Source of the DNA: Lysinibacillus sp. FSL W8-0992
Lineage (GTDB): Bacteria > Bacillota > Bacilli > Bacillales_A > Planococcaceae
Assembly: GCF_038008685.1 (NCBI RefSeq)
Contig: NZ_JBBOZQ010000001.1
Coordinates: forward strand, 3,906,001-3,970,000
Direction: 5' to 3'
DNA: 64,000 nt
Each line of letters starts with the position of its first letter. The first letter of the stretch is position 1. Shown here in pieces: positions 50,283 through 59,261 of the stretch. The notes under the pieces are model-generated. The model did no database searches. It was given only the letters and a program-made list of their open reading frames with translations, and had not been told where the DNA came from. A program made the translations under genes and the position numbers.

Positions 50283-50705
50283 ATGCATAAAAGCAATAGT
50301 TCATTCATTGTAGCGTCTACAAATATTATCATTATATCTTTAGCCCAAATTCTTTATTGGACAGTCCTAGAAGACTCAATAAATATGATGATTTATCAAT
50401 TTTTACTTTTCCCATTTACCTTAGTGTTGATTAATATAATTTTTTGGTTTAGCAAATTTAAACTACAGTTTTATCAACACGCACTTTTTGCCTACGCTGC
50501 GTTCTTTAGTTCGATTATTATTACGTTTATTGCAGTTCTATCAACTCCTGCTCAAGAATTGCCACCAGGCGAAATTGTATTATTTGCAGATGTGTTATTT
50601 GTTGTCATTACAATAACAATACAGATGATTATCTTGTTGTTGTTAAATTCCATAATTTATGTGGTTTATAGACTCTATCTTTCTCGGAATAAAATTAATA
50701 TTTAA
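50283..50705 (+). CDS. Hypothetical four-helix membrane protein
   Basis: 140 residues, not recognised. Four hydrophobic segments at about 8-28, 36-56, 66-88 and 100-130, with a short external-type loop LSTPAQELPPGE. RBS GGGGGTGGAG lies just before ATG 50283. It is followed 100 bp later by the first of the small unknown proteins, but there is no evidence that they form an operon. Confidence 0.75.
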   Translation: MHKSNSSFIVASTNIIIISLAQILYWTVLEDSINMMIYQFLLFPFTLVLINIIFWFSKFKLQFYQHALFAYAAFFSSIIITFIAVLSTPAQELPPGEIVLFADVLFVVITITIQMIILLLLNSIIYVVYRLYLSRNKINI

Positions 50706-50805
50706 GGTTGATTATTTGTCAAAAATGTCCCTTTTAGTATTGAAAGCATCAATTAAATTCCTAGGAAAAAACTGCTTTCAAAATTATTAAAAAGGAGAGG
50801 TAAAT

Positions 50806-51288
50806 ATGGCATTATTCCCTGAAGATAATGGAAATTTTGATTACAAAGCAAATGGTTATTACATCTATGAAAATGTGGCTGTAGGTTCTATTCAAAATGC
50901 TCGAATTAACGTGAAATACCAACGAGCAATCGCAATTTCTTTAATTCATGGTAATACAGCCGTACAATGTGCTAGTTCATTAAGAGAATGTTATAATCTT
51001 GCGGTAGAAGCTCGTAAAATTTATTTAAATACATTCCGAGAACGCTTTCCAGTTTCAGCTGAGGCAATGGCTTGGGAAATTTGGATTCATGCTACTCCAG
51101 AAGTATTGGATAGAGTGATAAATAATAAAGTTGTTCGAGTAATTCTCGGTGCTACGCTTACTGGAAAAATTGCTATAGCTATTTCAAGAGTAGTTGCTAG
51201 TCACACAGAATACGCTGATATAGGTATTAATGATGATTTACGAAGATTTGATAGTTTTTTTGAAAAAGCTTATAACTTAATCTATTAA
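50806..51288 (+). CDS. Unknown 160-residue cytoplasmic protein
   Basis: Not recognised. No signal peptide. Features: ENVAVGSIQNARINVKYQRAI, then HGNTAVQCASSL, an alpha-helical middle (ECYNLAVEARKIYLNTFRERF), and a hydrophobic helix near 130-147 (VILGATLTGKIAIAIS). RBS AAAAAGGAGAGG. It ends in a strong terminator. The segment G-N-x-A-V also occurs in the small proteins at 53094 and 55979, and its upstream region shares a CCCTTT motif with theirs. Confidence 0.75.
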   Translation: MALFPEDNGNFDYKANGYYIYENVAVGSIQNARINVKYQRAIAISLIHGNTAVQCASSLRECYNLAVEARKIYLNTFRERFPVSAEAMAWEIWIHATPEVLDRVINNKVVRVILGATLTGKIAIAISRVVASHTEYADIGINDDLRRFDSFFEKAYNLIY

Positions 51289-51964: not shown

Positions 51965-52396
51965 CGATATCACACCTTTTTAATTTACTTGTTTTAATTA
52001 GTAAACTTCTAAAGTTCCCCCCAAAGGCTTCCAAATAAAATATCTTTGAAATATGTTATTGCCTTCCCTTTCAAACGATACGATACTTATCTATTTCAAC
52101 TCCCTCCTTTTATTTTTTTATAATTTATCAGAATCTTTAAGTATTTTCAATTAAAAATAGAGAGTAATTATTAAAAAAATTTACTAAGAAACCATCTTTT
52201 ACAAAGGATATTTCCATTATAAAAATATTCATTTCCTTCAAATACCTCTTAAAAAAAAACCAATTCTCCACTAAATTAACCGAAAATCCCCTAACAATTT
52301 TAATCAAATGTATAGTTGATTTTGTTTCAAGAAAAGTCCTTTATATAAATAAAAAATTATTTTGAATGTATTCGCTAGCGCAAAGGAGGGATTTTT

Positions 52397-52957
52397 TTGA
52401 TTCAAAATCAGTTACTTAAAAACTTCTTGAAAAACCCAGAAATAAAAGAGCTGTATCAAAGTTATTTAGAAAAGCCTACTGCTCGCAAAAAAGAATTGAT
52501 TGAAAAATTGTTTCAAATTCATGGTCGAAAGATTCAACTGCTTAGTTATTTTTCACAAACTTTAACTTTTGAATCTCAAAAATTTGATAAAAAAATTCGC
52601 CATAACAGTAAACTTAATCAATTGATATTAGATAAAAGCATCGATGGAGGGAGCAAATTGCTTGATTTAATTCCAGATGAACAAAACCTTCATAATTTTG
52701 AATTCTACACTCCTGTTGAATCTTGTAAATTAGAAATGATTTTTGAAGATAAACAACTGTACGAAATCGTTTCTAGATTAAGTGCAAAACAAAAGGAGAT
52801 TCTGTACTTCCTTTTTGTGAAGGATTGGACTGAAGGAGAATTGGCTATGGAGCTTGGTGTTTCGATACAAGCTATCAATAAGATCAAAAATCAAGCGTTA
52901 CGAAAAATTAAAGAAGAGTATGAATTGGCAAAGCAGAATATTAAAGATAAGAATTAA
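52397..52957 (+). CDS. SigO/YvrI-like sigma factor with region 4 only
   Basis: 186 residues. The C-terminal 65 residues form a sigma region 4 HTH (YEIVSRLSAKQKEILYFLFVKDWTEGELAMELGVSIQAINKIKNQALRKI). The N-terminal 120 residues show no recognisable region 2, as in B. subtilis SigO (YvrI), which needs the separate co-sigma RsoA. An rsoA-like and a yvrJ-like gene lie 2.3 kb away on the other strand. TTG start behind AAAGGAGGG. Homology to SigO is proposed from architecture, length and neighbours rather than proved. Confidence 0.75.
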   Translation: MIQNQLLKNFLKNPEIKELYQSYLEKPTARKKELIEKLFQIHGRKIQLLSYFSQTLTFESQKFDKKIRHNSKLNQLILDKSIDGGSKLLDLIPDEQNLHNFEFYTPVESCKLEMIFEDKQLYEIVSRLSAKQKEILYFLFVKDWTEGELAMELGVSIQAINKIKNQALRKIKEEYELAKQNIKDKN

Positions 52958-53033
52958 ACTACAAGTCTATGGTAGGTTTTTAGATTAAAAACTCCTAAAG
53001 GTGGTTGTTAAATCGCTTTAAATTTCCCTTTAA

Positions 53034-53066
53034 AAAGTGTTAAATTGGCCAACTTTAACACTTTTA
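53034..53066. repeat. 33-bp near-perfect palindrome upstream of the 145-residue protein gene
   Basis: Arms AAAAGTGTTAAA and CTTTAACACTTTT surround TTGGCCAA, itself a palindrome. It could be the terminator of the sigma-factor gene 76 bp upstream, or an operator in front of the next gene; followed by ATATTA rather than a T-run. Confidence 0.55.
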
Positions 53067-53093
53067 TATTAAATTTTAAGGAGGAATTTCATT

Positions 53094-53531
53094 ATGGCGA
53101 TTTATAATTATCGAAAAGGTTCTACTACATCAACAAATTTAACAAAAGAGCAATTACTTCAGTTGAGGCATGCAACTCTTAGTGGTGCAGAATTTTTACT
53201 TTCTACCGCAAATCATTCAAGTATTCAAGATAAATTAAAAAATGTTTATCCTGGAAATTTAAATAAGGTGTTTGGCATTTATTCTGTTACTACTATTGCC
53301 ACTCGTTTGTCATTAATTTATGATGGTATGCCGCATTCAACAAGGAATACGGTAGCAACAGAAGGAAATACTGCCGTTAAAAACTTTAGCGATATTTTTA
53401 ACAATGCTGACTCCAATGGTGCTAGATTAATAACTGTTAACATCAATTATTATGAACTATTCAACGCAACGACAGGGGCCACTACCTTGACACTTCCTGT
53501 TTCAGTAATCCCTACTCGATACCACTTCTAA
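53094..53531 (+). CDS. Unknown 145-residue small protein
   Basis: Not recognised. No signal peptide. The N-terminal half is helical (LTKEQLLQLRHATLSGAEFLLS), the middle has IYDGMPHSTRNTVATEGNTAVKNF, and the C-terminus is beta-rich (ARLITVNINYYELFNATTGATTLTLPVSVIP). The P-x-S-x-R-N ... G-N-x-A-V pattern followed by beta strands recurs in the 158-residue protein at 55979, suggesting distant paralogy. It lies directly downstream of the SigO-like gene with RBS AAGGAGG and its own terminator. Confidence 0.78.
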   Translation: MAIYNYRKGSTTSTNLTKEQLLQLRHATLSGAEFLLSTANHSSIQDKLKNVYPGNLNKVFGIYSVTTIATRLSLIYDGMPHSTRNTVATEGNTAVKNFSDIFNNADSNGARLITVNINYYELFNATTGATTLTLPVSVIPTRYHF

Positions 53532-53548
53532 TCGTAAGCACAAATAAG

Positions 53549-53571
53549 CCCCTGTCTATAATAGACAGGGG
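53549..53571 (+). terminator. Terminator after the 145-residue protein gene
   Basis: CCCCTGTCTAT and ATAGACAGGGG form an 11-bp perfect stem at 53549-53571 with TTTATTATT following. Confidence 0.85.
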
Positions 53572-53575
53572 TTTA

Positions 53576-54046
53576 TTATTGAATAGCTTGTTCTAAAGTA
53601 TTAAAAAATTCATCACTGTTCAGTATTTTAAAATATCTCGTATCGCTACTAAAGCATATTTCTTTTTTGTCTTTGAATATATAAATGTAATAATCCTTAT
53701 TTGATTTTATTTTAAACCAATAATCTGCATCACTTAACATATATATATTGTTCGATATTTGTAATTGTAAGTTTTGAAAATTATGGACGATTTTTTTCCG
53801 CTGTTCTTCCTCCTCTATAAAAATCGTTTCATAATCCTCTATATTCCCATCAATAATCCCAATACCAAGCTTCATTTTATCAGCATTAAAATCTGCATCC
53901 TTCATTATATCCGATACTGTATAAATTTTTTCAGCTTCCGCCTTAAGAGTAGCTTCTCTTTTTTTATTTTCATATACATCCAATCCCATCAAAGCAAGAC
54001 TGACTATAACTACAAAAATGACTATGAAAATTGAACGTTTCCGCAT
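53576..54046 (-). CDS. Hypothetical membrane-anchored protein
   Basis: 156 residues. Basic N-terminus and one transmembrane helix (about 6-22, IFIVIFVVIVSLALMG), then an extracytoplasmic domain with IIDGNIEDYETIFIEEEEQRKKIV, YWFKIKSNKDYYIYIFKDKKEICF and a terminal LNSDEFFNTLEQAI. The overall pattern is shared loosely with the 148-residue protein at 56475 and, closely, with a decayed fragment at 55209-55308. Start at 54046 since AGGAGG overlaps the upstream ATG at 54061. Function unknown. Confidence 0.75.
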   Translation of the reverse strand: MRKRSIFIVIFVVIVSLALMGLDVYENKKREATLKAEAEKIYTVSDIMKDADFNADKMKLGIGIIDGNIEDYETIFIEEEEQRKKIVHNFQNLQLQISNNIYMLSDADYWFKIKSNKDYYIYIFKDKKEICFSSDTRYFKILNSDEFFNTLEQAIQ

Positions 54047-54217
54047 AGAGTTCCTCCTCATTTTTATTTTTTAAATTATATCAAATTTCATATATTTTCA
54101 CTCTATTTAACTTAAAATTCTCGTAAATTCACCCTTTTACTCTATTGATAAAAAAAGTATGTTTCGATTATTTAATCAAAACATACCTCTATCTGCTTCA
54201 TTTATTCGTTAAAGAAA

Positions 54218-54340
54218 GGACCAGAAATAATTTATTCAGCTGTTCCAGATAATCCTAAAGAAATCGGGGGACTTTGGCCATTTTTAAAAAGTGAATTTGT
54301 GAACGTTGGACGTTCCTATGATAGTTGGCAAAATAACTAG
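54218..54340 (+). pseudogene. C-terminal remnant of an unidentified gene
   Basis: An open frame without start codon or RBS encodes GPEIIYSAVPDNPKEIGG and LWPFLKSEFVNVGRSYDSW before a TAG at 54338. A strong terminator (54342-54368) follows at once, as expected for the 3' end of a real gene. The upstream part is missing. I cannot name the parent protein. Confidence 0.4.
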
Positions 54341-54341
54341 A

Positions 54342-54368
54342 AAAAAGACCGTTTCAACGGTCTTTTTG
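54342..54368. terminator. Bidirectional terminator
   Basis: AAAAAGACCGTT pairs with AACGGTCTTTTT around a 2-3-base loop; serves the remnant at 54218 and the converging minus-strand gene. Another hairpin (AGTATGTTTCGATTA with AATCAAAACATAC, 54150-54186) lies further left. Confidence 0.8.
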
Positions 54369-54396
54369 TCCTAGAGTTTGTTTTTCTATGTTCATT

Positions 54397-54795
54397 TTAA
54401 TCATTTTTTGAAAGATTATTTAATCGCCATTTATAAAAAACTTTCAGCAAATAATCACTAATCACAAATATTGTTACAAATATACTACTTATTGAGATAG
54501 TTAAATAAATGCTATCGTTGAAAGTAGCTTTACTATCAGACATTACCAAACTAAATAATAAAGAATAGGTCAAAGCACAAAGTAAATGCTTAATATACAT
54601 GACATAGATATTCATAATTTTACTATAATGTTCAATTAGTATTGATACCAATATGGCTACAAGCATTGCAGGCCCAGTAAATATAGTACTATAAATACCA
54701 TATGATATGCTGTAAGAAGAGCCAATAAATAGCGGAATAATAAATATCCCAATTACTAGTGTAACGACTGCTGCAATTATTTTGTTTCTCAACAT
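54397..54795 (-). CDS. Hypothetical four-helix membrane protein
   Basis: 132 residues with hydrophobic segments at about 6-27, 36-55, 66-86 and 96-120, ending in a basic tail FYKWRLNNLSKND. No family recognised. The RBS is weak (AAAGGTTGTGAAT). Monocistronic between the accessory genes, with a terminator 29 bp after its stop. Confidence 0.65.
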   Translation of the reverse strand: MLRNKIIAAVVTLVIGIFIIPLFIGSSYSISYGIYSTIFTGPAMLVAILVSILIEHYSKIMNIYVMYIKHLLCALTYSLLFSLVMSDSKATFNDSIYLTISISSIFVTIFVISDYLLKVFYKWRLNNLSKND

Positions 54796-55208
54796 CTTTA
54801 TTCACAACCTTTAATCATTTTTAATATTTTAAAATGGCTAAAGTTATACGATTTGAACGACAATATGTGTAAACAGCTATATTAAACCATATAATACATA
54901 GTATTTCGTTGCGCTACTACCTCCTGCAAAAAATCTCTTATACTTGACTTCTATTATATTTTAATACAAAAATTATTATGTATAAATTACTTTTAATGAC
55001 TTATATTTTATTTTAATTTGTATTTGATCCATTACTTCAATATCACATTTCCTATAAAAGAATATATAAATAAAGGCTATGCTAAATCTTTCAAACCTGT
55101 AGCACAGCCTTTTCTAACTTATATTTTACGATTCACTATGGAAATCTGTTCGCTTTGGGATGTGGAACACTCTCTAAATGGAAGTTAGGCATCTTAACTT
55201 GAGAGTTT

Positions 55209-55308
55209 GATACTTGTAATTGTAAGTTTGTACATAATGGACGATTGGGTTTTGCTGTTCTCCACCTTCTACAAAAATCGTTTCACAATTCTCTATATTT
55301 CCGTCAAT
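55209..55308 (-). pseudogene. Decayed copy of the 53576 membrane-protein gene
   Basis: This stretch closely matches 53754-53856 of the intact gene, and its minus-strand reading (IDGNIENCETIFVEGGEQ then IVHYVQT) aligns with IDGNIEDYETIFIEEEEQ and IVHNFQN there. No start or 5' part remains, and its left end runs into a hairpin region at 55070-55117. It marks duplication followed by decay. The 500-bp gap 54796-55303 holds nothing else that I can identify. Confidence 0.7.
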
Positions 55309-55519
55309 TCTCTTTTTTTGTTTGCGTATTTTTTTCTTTATCCATAAGTTCAAAGAAGGACGGGAGTTGCTTAAATCCTTTTCTCTTTATCGTTGATAAC
55401 ACTTTTAAGATTAGTTCTTGCTCTAAATCCTTTTGATCTTGCTTATTAGTTTGCCTTAACACAGCTTTAATTTTTGGTGTCAACAGTTCAATAACTTCTT
55501 GTTCAAATCTGCCATCCAC
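55304..55519 (-). CDS. RsoA-like co-sigma / HTH_16-type protein
   Basis: 71 residues, fully helical, FEQEVIELLTPKIKAVLRQTNKQDQKDLEQELILKVL then PSFFELMDK. This resembles the region-2-like N-terminal segment of sigma factors and RsoA (YvrHa) of B. subtilis, the co-sigma of SigO. GTG at 55519 follows GAGGTGAT at proper spacing. It follows a yvrJ-like gene, as in the B. subtilis yvr locus. Predicted partner: the region-4-only sigma at 52397. Similarity judged by eye. Confidence 0.7.
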   Translation of the reverse strand: MDGRFEQEVIELLTPKIKAVLRQTNKQDQKDLEQELILKVLSTIKRKGFKQLPSFFELMDKEKNTQTKKEN

Positions 55520-55580
55520 CGCTATCACCTCAAATATATTTATGATATTTTTTTCGATCCTTTACCGCTAAAGCACAACA

Positions 55581-55766
55581 TCAATTTATATGTTCGCCCC
55601 CCTCCCTCTGCGCTTTTTGCAATAATAACTGCACAGCTTGCGTGTTATTATTGACTGCTTCTGTCAATAAGGCTAGGGATTTATCAAATTTCCAAAAAAC
55701 CATTAGAAACGCTACTATCGGAAAACCAACATTACTAATTAAATTCATTAATATAGATTGATCCAT
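55581..55766 (-). CDS. YvrJ-family small membrane protein
   Basis: 61 residues: LISNVGFPIVAFLMVFWKFDKSLALLTEAV. The NVGFP segment followed by a hydrophobic helix and a charged amphipathic tail is the YvrJ family signature. The ATG at 55766 follows AAAGGAGG; the longer frame from 55787 includes the RBS. Encoded just upstream of the rsoA-like gene. YvrJ function is unknown, though in B. subtilis it lies in the sigO locus. Confidence 0.8.
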   Translation of the reverse strand: MDQSILMNLISNVGFPIVAFLMVFWKFDKSLALLTEAVNNNTQAVQLLLQKAQREGGEHIN

Positions 55767-55780
55767 ATTAAAACCTCCTT

Positions 55781-55941
55781 TGTTCATAAAGGGGACTTAA
55801 CATGTATTTTATCAACCTTCTATAAGAATTATTAATGTATTTCCGAACATATAATAATAGCCTTTCCGACTACTTAGTTTTTATAAAACTAAATATCATC
55901 TATGGTTGTTATTTTGGCTACTAGTTCCCCTTTATAGATTG
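55781..55941. promoter_or_regulatory. Divergent region with two copies of a TCCCCTTTAT motif
   Basis: AAGTCCCCTTTATGAAC reads toward yvrJ (55798-55782 on the minus strand) and AGTTCCCCTTTATAGATTG reads toward the 158-residue protein gene (55923-55941). Related stretches occur before 50806 (TGTCCCTTTTAG, 50726-50737) and before 53094 (TTTCCCTTTAAAAA, 53023-53036). May be a promoter or regulatory box of the SigO-like system; unproved. Confidence 0.4.
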
Positions 55942-55978
55942 TTAGCTAACACAATAGCAATATAAAGGAGAGGTTAAT

Positions 55979-56455
55979 GTGCCAACAGTAACGAAAGAAT
56001 ATATTGCAGTAAAGAAAATAAAAGGAGATCGCGATATTCTCTCAATTCGACTTGCGCAAATTGAAGCAATAGATTACCTAGAAGGAAGAACCAATGCAGA
56101 TCAACTTAAATCAAATATTGGAAATATTGCATCACTTGCAGGTATTGCTTATTCGGTCTTCGGTAAAAGTAGCGCAATAGGGGTTGCTTTAGGTGTTATT
56201 AGTTTCCTCGCTTCAAGCCCATCTCAATCACACCGCAATGGTATGATTCAAGGGCTTAAAGCAGGTAATAATGCGGTGCAACGCTTGGAGAATGATTTAG
56301 TTAATTCATACCGATATAGTGAAACATTCGATATTGAGTTAGGGTTTTTAGAAGCGAGTGACTGGGCTACTCAACAGCAACTTTTCAAAGGAGTAACAGG
56401 AGTAGGAAAAATCCACGCCTTTTACGATGAAAAAGGTAATCGAATCCCTGTATAA
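55979..56455 (+). CDS. Unknown 158-residue small protein
   Basis: Not recognised. The N-terminus is strand/helix (TKEYIAVKKIKGDRDILSIRLAQI). A hydrophobic Gly/Ala/Ser-rich centre (GNIASLAGIAYSVFGKSSAIG and VISFLASS) may insert in membranes. Then PSQSHRNGMIQGLKAGNNAVQ and a beta-rich end (ETFDIELGFLEASDW). The R-N ... G-N-x-A-V pattern matches the 53094 protein. GTG start behind AAAGGAGAGG, the same RBS block as at 50806. Divergent from the yvrJ-rsoA pair. Confidence 0.75.
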   Translation: MPTVTKEYIAVKKIKGDRDILSIRLAQIEAIDYLEGRTNADQLKSNIGNIASLAGIAYSVFGKSSAIGVALGVISFLASSPSQSHRNGMIQGLKAGNNAVQRLENDLVNSYRYSETFDIELGFLEASDWATQQQLFKGVTGVGKIHAFYDEKGNRIPV

Positions 56456-56495
56456 AATAATGAGGTAGTCGAATTTATTCGACTACCTCATTATT
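56456..56495. terminator. Bidirectional terminator
   Basis: Perfect 18-bp stem AATAATGAGGTAGTCGAA (56456-56473) with TTCGACTACCTCATTATT (56478-56495). The right arm overlaps the last codons of the minus-strand gene. Confidence 0.9.
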
Positions 56496-56921
56496 ATGTA
56501 AATAACTTTGAACAAACGAAAAAAATTCAGAACTATCCTCCAGAATATATTGCTTCATCATTTTAGGCCTTTCAATAATTCCAATGATATTTCTTTCGTA
56601 ATCTAAAATTATTGTATAGGATTGATCTGGATTTACAGAATAAAAGTAAATATAAGCATCCTCATTAAAAGCCGGTCGATTAGGAATTATTTTCTTTTTC
56701 ATCAAGAGTCTATCTAGTATTGAAGTAAATCGTTTTGTCTCCTCTTGTTCAATATAATACGATTCTCTCATATCTGAAATCAAAACATTATTGATGCTCG
56801 CAATATCCAATGTTGGTACAGCCTCATTAAAAGTAATTAGTGGTCTAGTGTACAACCATATTAGCCAAATCACAACTACTATCAACAATAACCATATTTT
56901 TTTATTGCGAATATCCATCAT
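56475..56921 (-). CDS. Hypothetical membrane-anchored protein, distant relative of the 53576 protein
   Basis: 148 residues. One N-terminal transmembrane helix (about 8-24, IWLLLIVVVIWLIWLY). The extracytoplasmic part has EQEETKRFTSILDRLL, DAYIYFYSVNPDQSYTIIL and a terminal YILEDSSEFFSFVQSYL. The order of these elements mirrors the 53576 product (EEEEQRKKIV, YYIYIFKDKKEICF, ILNSDEFFNTL), so the two may be one family; DUF5301 is a possible home. GGAGG directly abuts the tandem ATGs, leaving the exact start uncertain. Confidence 0.7.
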   Translation of the reverse strand: MMDIRNKKIWLLLIVVVIWLIWLYTRPLITFNEAVPTLDIASINNVLISDMRESYYIEQEETKRFTSILDRLLMKKKIIPNRPAFNEDAYIYFYSVNPDQSYTIILDYERNIIGIIERPKMMKQYILEDSSEFFSFVQSYLHNNEVVE

Positions 56922-58224: not shown

Positions 58225-58314
58225 AGAGTCTGAGACAAAAGAGAAAAAGTGTAAGATTGACTGCAATCAATCTTACACTTTTTGTATTGCTGTTGATGTC
58301 CGTTACAGCGGGTC
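58225..58314. repeat. Dispersed hairpin element, copy 2 (GAGACAAAAG type)
   Basis: GAGTCTGAGACAAAAGAG is followed by a perfect hairpin (AAAAAGTGTAAGATTGA with TCAATCTTACACTTTTT) and GTATTGCTGTTGATGTCCGTTACAGCGGG. It matches 36597-36690 in order and sequence. The hairpin also acts as a plausible terminator for the nucleoid-associated protein gene. Confidence 0.75.
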
Positions 58315-58790
58315 TACTGGCGATTCACTGGCTTTTAGTTGCGGTTTCTCCTTTTCAGGCGATTCACGGACTTCTATCGGCGGTTTCTCCTGCCTTACCG
58401 GCGATTCACGGACTTCTATCGGCGGTTTCCCCTGCTTTACCGGCGTTTCATGAACTTCTATCGGCGGTTTCTCCTGCTTTACCGGCGGTTCATGAACTTC
58501 TATCGGCCATTTCCCCTGCTTTACCGGCATTTCATGAACTTCTATCGGCGGTTTCTCCTGCCTTACCGGCGATTCACGGACTTCTATCGGCGATTTCTCC
58601 TGCCTTACCGGCGATTCACAGACTTCTATCGGCGATTTCCCCTGCTTTACCGGCGTTTCATGAACTTCTATCGGCGATTTCCCCTGCCTTACCGGCGTTT
58701 CATGAACTTCTATCGGCGATTTCTCCTGCTTTACCGGTGTTTCATGGACTTCTATCGGCGGTTTCTCCTGCTCTATCGGCGATTTACTTA
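58312..58790. repeat. 21/42-bp ggcg tandem repeat array 3 (about 23 units)
   Basis: About 23 units of 21 bp alternate between two types, CGGCGATTTCTCCTGCYTTAC and CGGCGATTCACGGACTTCTAT-like, so the true period is 42 bp. The array abuts the stop codon of the DinB-like gene. Because 21 is a multiple of 3, several frames stay open for long stretches; none has an RBS and I do not treat them as genes. Same core as arrays at 11022-11210 and 31711-31806. Confidence 0.92.
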
Positions 58791-59261
58791 CCGCTGCCAG
58801 CTCTTTTGCATCTTCCGTATATAAACAATTTGACCGATATGGTAGGCATTATGCGTTGTCACATTCCCCACTACTTGCCACCAATTTGCATTAAAATACC
58901 CTTTTACTTCGCTTTCAAGCTGTTGTTCTGATAATAATTCTTGCCAATATAAAAGGACTGTTAATAGCTGTTGCTGAAGTTCAACGAATGTTTTATTTTC
59001 TGAAATGGTAAACGTACTGTCATTACTCCCTACCGCCTGAACTGCATGTATACTATTTTCTTTATATCTCGTTTGCCACGTTTCATTCCAATAAAGTAAA
59101 TGCTGTACAATTTCAGCAATACTATTACTTTCCTCACTTACCTTCCAAAAAGCTTCTTCCTCTGTTAGATTTTTAACAGCCTCTGTCAATGGGACGTACC
59201 AGCTTGGATCGTTTGCATTCGCTAACAACTGATCGGATAAAACATCTTTTAGGTGAAACAT
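58788..59261 (-). CDS. DinB-superfamily protein
   Basis: 157 residues, four-helix bundle pattern of DinB/YfiT-like proteins. Metal-binding type His residues are visible in EIVQHLLYWNETW and in THNAYHIGQIVYIRK. Members act as thiol-dependent or metal-dependent transferases, often of unknown substrate. Start ATG at 59261 follows AAGGAGTTGGG. Its stop codon sits within the edge of repeat array 3. Confidence 0.88.
   Translation of the reverse strand: MFHLKDVLSDQLLANANDPSWYVPLTEAVKNLTEEEAFWKVSEESNSIAEIVQHLLYWNETWQTRYKENSIHAVQAVGSNDSTFTISENKTFVELQQQLLTVLLYWQELLSEQQLESEVKGYFNANWWQVVGNVTTHNAYHIGQIVYIRKMQKSWQR

Follow-up and report, generated by a model that had tools for sequence, protein, structure and literature searches.

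A split sigma factor of the SigO-RsoA type, together with a predicted regulon of small proteins, is encoded in a 64,000-nucleotide stretch of the Lysinibacillus sp. FSL W8-0992 chromosome (contig NZ_JBBOZQ010000001.1, positions 3,906,001 to 3,970,000; hereafter the window, whose numbering is used for coordinates throughout). Most of the small client proteins are encoded beside an immunity-like membrane partner, an arrangement suggestive of a so far undescribed type of antibacterial weapon. We think it probable that a SigO-RsoA AND gate controls bacteriocin-like proteins without leaders, for which a holin-like protein may provide the exit, a reading in which toxicity, immunity and export are putative. 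Loci and genomes compared with the window are referred to by L and G handles.

The first half of the sigma factor is a 186-residue SigO-like protein (52397..52957, + strand; TTG start, ribosome site AAAGGAGGG), in which Pfam Sigma70_r4 matches residues 126–173 (2.5e-8) and Sigma70_r2 gives no Pfam match at E<=1, bearing out an earlier note on this DNA that had read it as sigma region 4 only. Aligned over its full length, it is 24 and 26% identical to SigO of two B. subtilis-type genomes. The second, sigma region 2-type half is a diverged RsoA homologue (55304..55528, - strand; GTG start) of 74 residues, rather than the 71 given previously, which matches NCBIfam PRK14082 (5.7e-12, 45.3 bits, under the cut-off of 86) and sigO_reg_RsoA NF041489 (1.1e-5, 25.4 bits, under the cut-off of 100), with no unrelated family above its own cut-off among the Pfam and NCBIfam profiles. 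It shares 29 and 27% identity with RsoA of two B. subtilis-type genomes, including the DLEQE and P-F motifs, and, since it scores below the curated equivalog cut-off, is classed on sequence as an RsoA homologue of a different orthologous group. The earlier note had named a recognisable region 2 in the larger protein and an unrelated family for the smaller one as grounds for doubt; no region 2 was found, and the small protein matches RsoA models. The first gene of the yvrJ-rsoA operon (- strand; likely 55581..55766 within an open reading frame of 55581-55787) encodes a single-transmembrane holin-type protein, signal and transmembrane statements here being based on hydropathy or inspection by eye. 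Its earlier assignment to the YvrJ family holds as a likeness, with a score under the Pfam YvrJ (PF12841) cut-off (17.8 vs 29.5 bits) and a match to PHROG holin 4898 at 1.8e-9, a family also matched by a B. subtilis-type YvrJ (7.5e-6). The sigO-like and rsoA-like genes are convergent on opposite strands and 2.35 kb apart, as had been described (2.3 kb), and their profile matches make a SigO-RsoA-type split sigma, with its two halves in separate genes, a well-supported assignment.

The layout sigO(+) ... rsoA(-) yvrJ(-) is kept in three more Lysinibacillus genomes (L036, L037, L038), where sigO is 76–82% identical, so that the comparison across related genomes proposed in the earlier note again finds the three genes together. 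Among the other SigO-type loci fetched from Lysinibacillus genomes, almost all have an rsoA match next to sigO in the same orientation, some of them with yvrJ in between. Because of this conserved layout and this adjacency, the sigO-rsoA-yvrJ grouping is more than chance.

A single promoter type, GTTGWT-N17/18-CCTTT, lies upstream of sigO, of yvrJ-rsoA and of the three client genes g508 (50806), g530 (53094) and g559 (55979), the fuller form being a -35 element GGTTGWT, a spacer of mostly 17–18 and a -10 element CCyTTTATA. The exact pattern occurs six times in the window against 0.26 expected, five of these directly upstream of the genes just named. When the window was scored with a weight matrix trained on 17 sites from other genomes, many of them orthologous to the five window sites, those five sites obtained the top five scores over both strands: the promoters of g559 (55905..55933, +; 29.6), yvrJ-rsoA (55788..55816, -; 28.4), g530 (53004..53031, +; 27.4), sigO (52315..52342, +; 23.8) and g508 (50707..50734, +; 22.0). 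The next score was 17.2, and maxima in ten random sequences were 11.6–17.8. Among upstream regions of sigO, yvrJ and small neighbours, 17 of 22 contain the exact motif and 21 of 22 a looser form, the exception being a sigO copy of G017; this count omits two of 24 regions, that of the operon-internal rsoA and that of sigO of G007, where a match lies 162 nt upstream. We consider the shared promoter well supported, and predict from it a regulon of sigO, yvrJ-rsoA and the clients; given the motif before both sigO and yvrJ-rsoA, the sigma is probably autoregulated.

Together with the profile matches, this promoter supports the proposal that a split sigma like SigO/RsoA has a private regulon; the extent of that regulon differs from the block of genes between the two halves that had been put forward. 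Within that block, only the gene at 53094 (+) has the promoter, while those at 53576 and 54397, which are encoded on the opposite strand, are promoterless partner genes; the clients at 50806 and 55979 lie outside it, and two further candidates are found at distant places in the chromosome. Immediately after the -10 element, the g530 promoter carries a dyad (53036..53062, +), and the g559 promoter carries the dyad TGTTAGCTAACA (55940..55951, +), which is common to several g559-family promoters. Such perfect or near-perfect dyads directly follow the -10 of most client promoters (window, L084, L036, L037, L039, L093) and vary by client type.

The short pattern alone is unspecific genome-wide (35 matches vs 29 for a reversed control). 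Inspection of 26 of the 29 matches outside the window placed two as promoters of small proteins, each with a dyad behind the -10. One, found by blind motif scan at 2.174 Mb (L084), 1.8 Mb from the window, precedes a g559-family gene with a convergent partner gene; the other, at 3.193 Mb (L085 5827-6584, - strand), precedes tandem paralogues of 121 and 118 residues, of a family that was not recognised, with a single-transmembrane gene downstream on the same strand. A stricter pattern gave 18 matches in 32 genomes of the genus, compared to 8 for the control. Three of these lie in the window and two were previously known; by inspection, 11 of the 18 adjoin sigO, yvrJ, client or partner genes or their remnants, six appear chance-like (L150 being judged solely by sequence identity to L144 and L151), and L141 was not placed. 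The same genome also holds a second, compact sigO-yvrJ-rsoA locus (L034 6887-7919; G000:C1 about 32.9–33.9 kb), where a matrix scan did not detect the island motif; two split sigmas with different specificity may thus coexist in one genome.

The regulon proteins are, by their predicted sequences, nearly all leaderless, and those of the g559/g530 family are paired with membrane proteins. In the window, g559 (55979..56455, +) encodes a leaderless client of 158 residues with a hydrophobic centre, which faces g564 (56475..56921, -), a single-transmembrane partner and putative immunity protein. Its distant homologue g530 (53094..53531, +; 145 residues), a relationship supported by a match of the G024 copy to the g559 profile (1.7e-7), faces g535 (53576..54061, -), likewise a putative immunity protein with a single transmembrane segment and an outer domain. 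For the leaderless client g508 (50806..51288, +; 160 residues), the candidate partner is the hydrophobic membrane protein g502 (50283..50705, +), which lies upstream and co-directional rather than convergent; its homologue adjoins a g508 homologue in L046, and it is kept without g508 in L036. The hydrophobic membrane protein g543 (54397..54795, -) appears to be an orphan partner without an intact DUF3238 client: it adjoins the 40-residue tail of a DUF3238 gene, a 3' remnant (54218..54340, +) recognised by eye against L041 and L047, where intact DUF3238-type genes face g543 homologues. A g535-like partner remnant is also present (55174..55353, -; E 9.1e-6). The partner genes in the window are without a SigO-type promoter.

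Across the 32 Lysinibacillus genomes, each of the 14 intact g559/g530-family clients found converges tail-to-tail on a gene whose product is membrane-anchored; g530-type clients turned up beside others, no g530 profile being used. Client matches occur in 8 of the genomes, the G026 match being a fragment only, and type-A sigO (E<=1e-20) in five, all with g559-family matches. Partner matches at E<=1e-5, weak ones included, extend to 24 genomes, and those of at least 80 bits without a stop to 16. From the 31 partner rows in this stronger class, 30 were examined, G017 C52 not having been located by the script: 15 have a client open reading frame, 13 of them with a facing motif (G026 entering here as a g508-type frame beside a g530 remnant), 14 are without an intact client, and one is undecidable (G009, at a contig end with 132 nt of DNA behind it). 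Two partner rows in G002 face other open reading frames, of a kind not recognised. With a looser pattern, five rows without an intact client show a facing match, one of which belongs to sigO (G020), while that of G004 resembles a promoter whose client has been lost. Another is the promoter of the island type that, in G024, lies directly behind g502 although g508 is missing. The same genome has three clientless partner genes in a row (L036 3798-5680), one of which is nearer to the window g535 than is G024's own paired copy (301.6 vs 136.9 bits). Clients of the g559/g530 family are thus never alone, and partners often are, an asymmetry that immunity genes show and that is typical of toxin/immunity genes. 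We add to the earlier reading that the clients resemble proteins of the bacteriocin type, each with a cognate partner in the membrane. As a separate observation, a g530 homologue in L088 (2632-3114, -) has a lipoprotein-type N-terminus, is convergent with a g535-type partner and is without a SigO-type promoter. Further along the window, at 58257-58931, a long open reading frame of ~14-residue repeat units (LLSAVSPALPAIHG), with repeat frames also in other reading frames, appears minisatellite-like rather than a gene.

RsoA-type genes were found in 39 of 299 genomes of the class. A matrix typed from 14 of the 17 sites gave a high-scoring motif at several RsoA loci of other genera, before a yvrJ-like gene (L129), SigO-like genes (L121 and L122, by eye) and a small unrecognised protein (L125). 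The motif was not seen at the B. subtilis-type SigO-RsoA loci scanned with the matrix; its absence there and at the second locus of this genome indicates that promoter specificity has probably diverged within the SigO-RsoA family. Genes for DUF3238 proteins adjoin sigO-rsoA in L111/L170 and L131/L175, and in L172 one adjoins a weaker SigO match; their recurrence beside sigO-type genes spans several genera (L111, L131, L172, L041, L047). The neighbouring protein in G139 and G101, which belong to one genus, matches PHROG 1625 (1.8e-28 and 2.2e-21), annotated as 'involved in bacteriocin production or immunity'. A leaderless subtilase-like gene (L139 6815-7693, -; by eye) with a motif scoring 23.2 upstream also lies near an RsoA-type gene of another genus.

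In the mechanism that we propose, a trigger signal would raise SigO and RsoA together, and the resulting holoenzyme, by analogy an AND gate, would switch on the clients and the YvrJ-like holin simultaneously. The clients might then exit via the YvrJ-like membrane protein, or by lysis, and could attack the envelope of competing bacteria, while partners expressed from their own promoters would protect the producer and might persist as orphan immunity genes in non-producers.

The island might instead be a SigO-RsoA module of the usual sort, with clients that serve at the cell surface or under stress, like OxdC, and with partners that are cognate receptors, chaperones or regulators rather than immunity proteins. 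We consider this unlikely, even though the B. subtilis SigO-RsoA clients given in PMC8103513 are oxdC-yvrL, yvrJ and the sigma genes, and in some loci of other genera the motif precedes a subtilase-like gene (L139) or, at L120, a gene resembling Peptidase_C92 (3e-5, below cut-off); ten island proteins scanned gave no oxdC-type match, g543 is unlike YvrL (hhalign probability 0.3%), and frequent clientless partners combined with strong divergence of matched pairs would be unusual for a housekeeping pair.

Prophage lysis-like genes adjoin the DUF3238-type loci L041 and L047, in L041 along with tail-like genes (by eye), as might suit clients that act as toxins inside the cell, in an anti-phage or abortive-infection system triggered by the split sigma. 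Such a system seems to us improbable: nine of the ten island proteins are without a PADLOC match at E<=0.01, sigO matches two CARF fusion models (3.9e-4), probably through its helix-turn-helix, the partners have predicted membrane anchors, and an export-type N-terminus is present in one copy of a client. We would give still less credence to a signalling circuit, in which the partners would act as anti-sigmas or in signalling, with the clients as their ligands. Single-transmembrane proteins beside sigma factors are often anti-sigmas, but the partners here track clients and not sigO, with client/partner pairs at L084, L093 and L097 lacking sigO in the fetched DNA and partners also present in genomes lacking type-A sigO.

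A far broader reading can be entertained, tentatively and with considerable doubt: SigO-RsoA-type split sigmas would, in Bacilli, at root be devoted to the control of antagonistic proteins without leaders, forming with a YvrJ/UviB-type holin a mobile weapon-control module on GGTTGTT-N17/18-CCyTTTATA, with DUF3238 and g559 as recurring weapon families and B. subtilis SigO-RsoA-OxdC as a domesticated derivative. To our knowledge, the regulon known for SigO-RsoA is very small, and its division into two pieces lacks a clear rationale. The island ties this machinery to fast-evolving small protein/partner pairs, its predicted promoter yielded a further client blind, and it suggests what an AND gate may be good for, namely products that may be costly or dangerous to make. 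Should the clients kill, they would represent new leaderless antibacterial protein families (g559/g530, possibly DUF3238), and single-transmembrane holin-like proteins would offer a route for releasing leaderless proteins. Within the titles and abstracts of the open-licence papers searched, we found neither a link of a SigO-RsoA sigma to bacteriocin-like genes nor the island promoter, and the term DUF3238 was not found in the open-licence literature searched.

Compared with known systems, the island shares with B. subtilis SigO-RsoA (YvrI-YvrHa), whose AND-gate activation is established according to PMC10028694 and PMC8103513, a region-4 half and an RsoA half in separate genes, an adjoining YvrJ protein and autoregulation of the sigma genes, published for B. 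subtilis and indicated here by the motif. It differs in that the halves are convergent and 2.35 kb apart, that the clients are small protein/partner pairs, with no match to the oxdC-yvrL client operon among the ten island proteins scanned, and that the B. subtilis-type loci scanned show no such promoter motif. Bacteriocin/immunity and polymorphic toxin loci likewise contain client/partner pairs that diverge, along with remnants and orphan partner genes. The island departs from them in its convergent pairs, of which only the client is under the special sigma; no toxin domain or dedicated transporter was recognised in it, and killing is presumed. UviA of Clostridium perfringens is a one-piece sigma of group V. 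The set to which it belongs, UviA-UviB-Bcn5, resembles the island in combining a dedicated sigma with a holin-type protein of small size and with products that have no leader, and a release that depends on the holin has been proposed for it (PMC9527704). This sigma/holin/bacteriocin set is the nearest working model for the island. Bcn5 has cell-wall domains and is accompanied by an endolysin, whereas Pfam detected neither among the ten island proteins scanned, and the island sigma is split and its clients small, most with a membrane partner. The sigma pair thus belongs to a known kind, and the new part is the promoter together with the toxin/immunity-like regulon.

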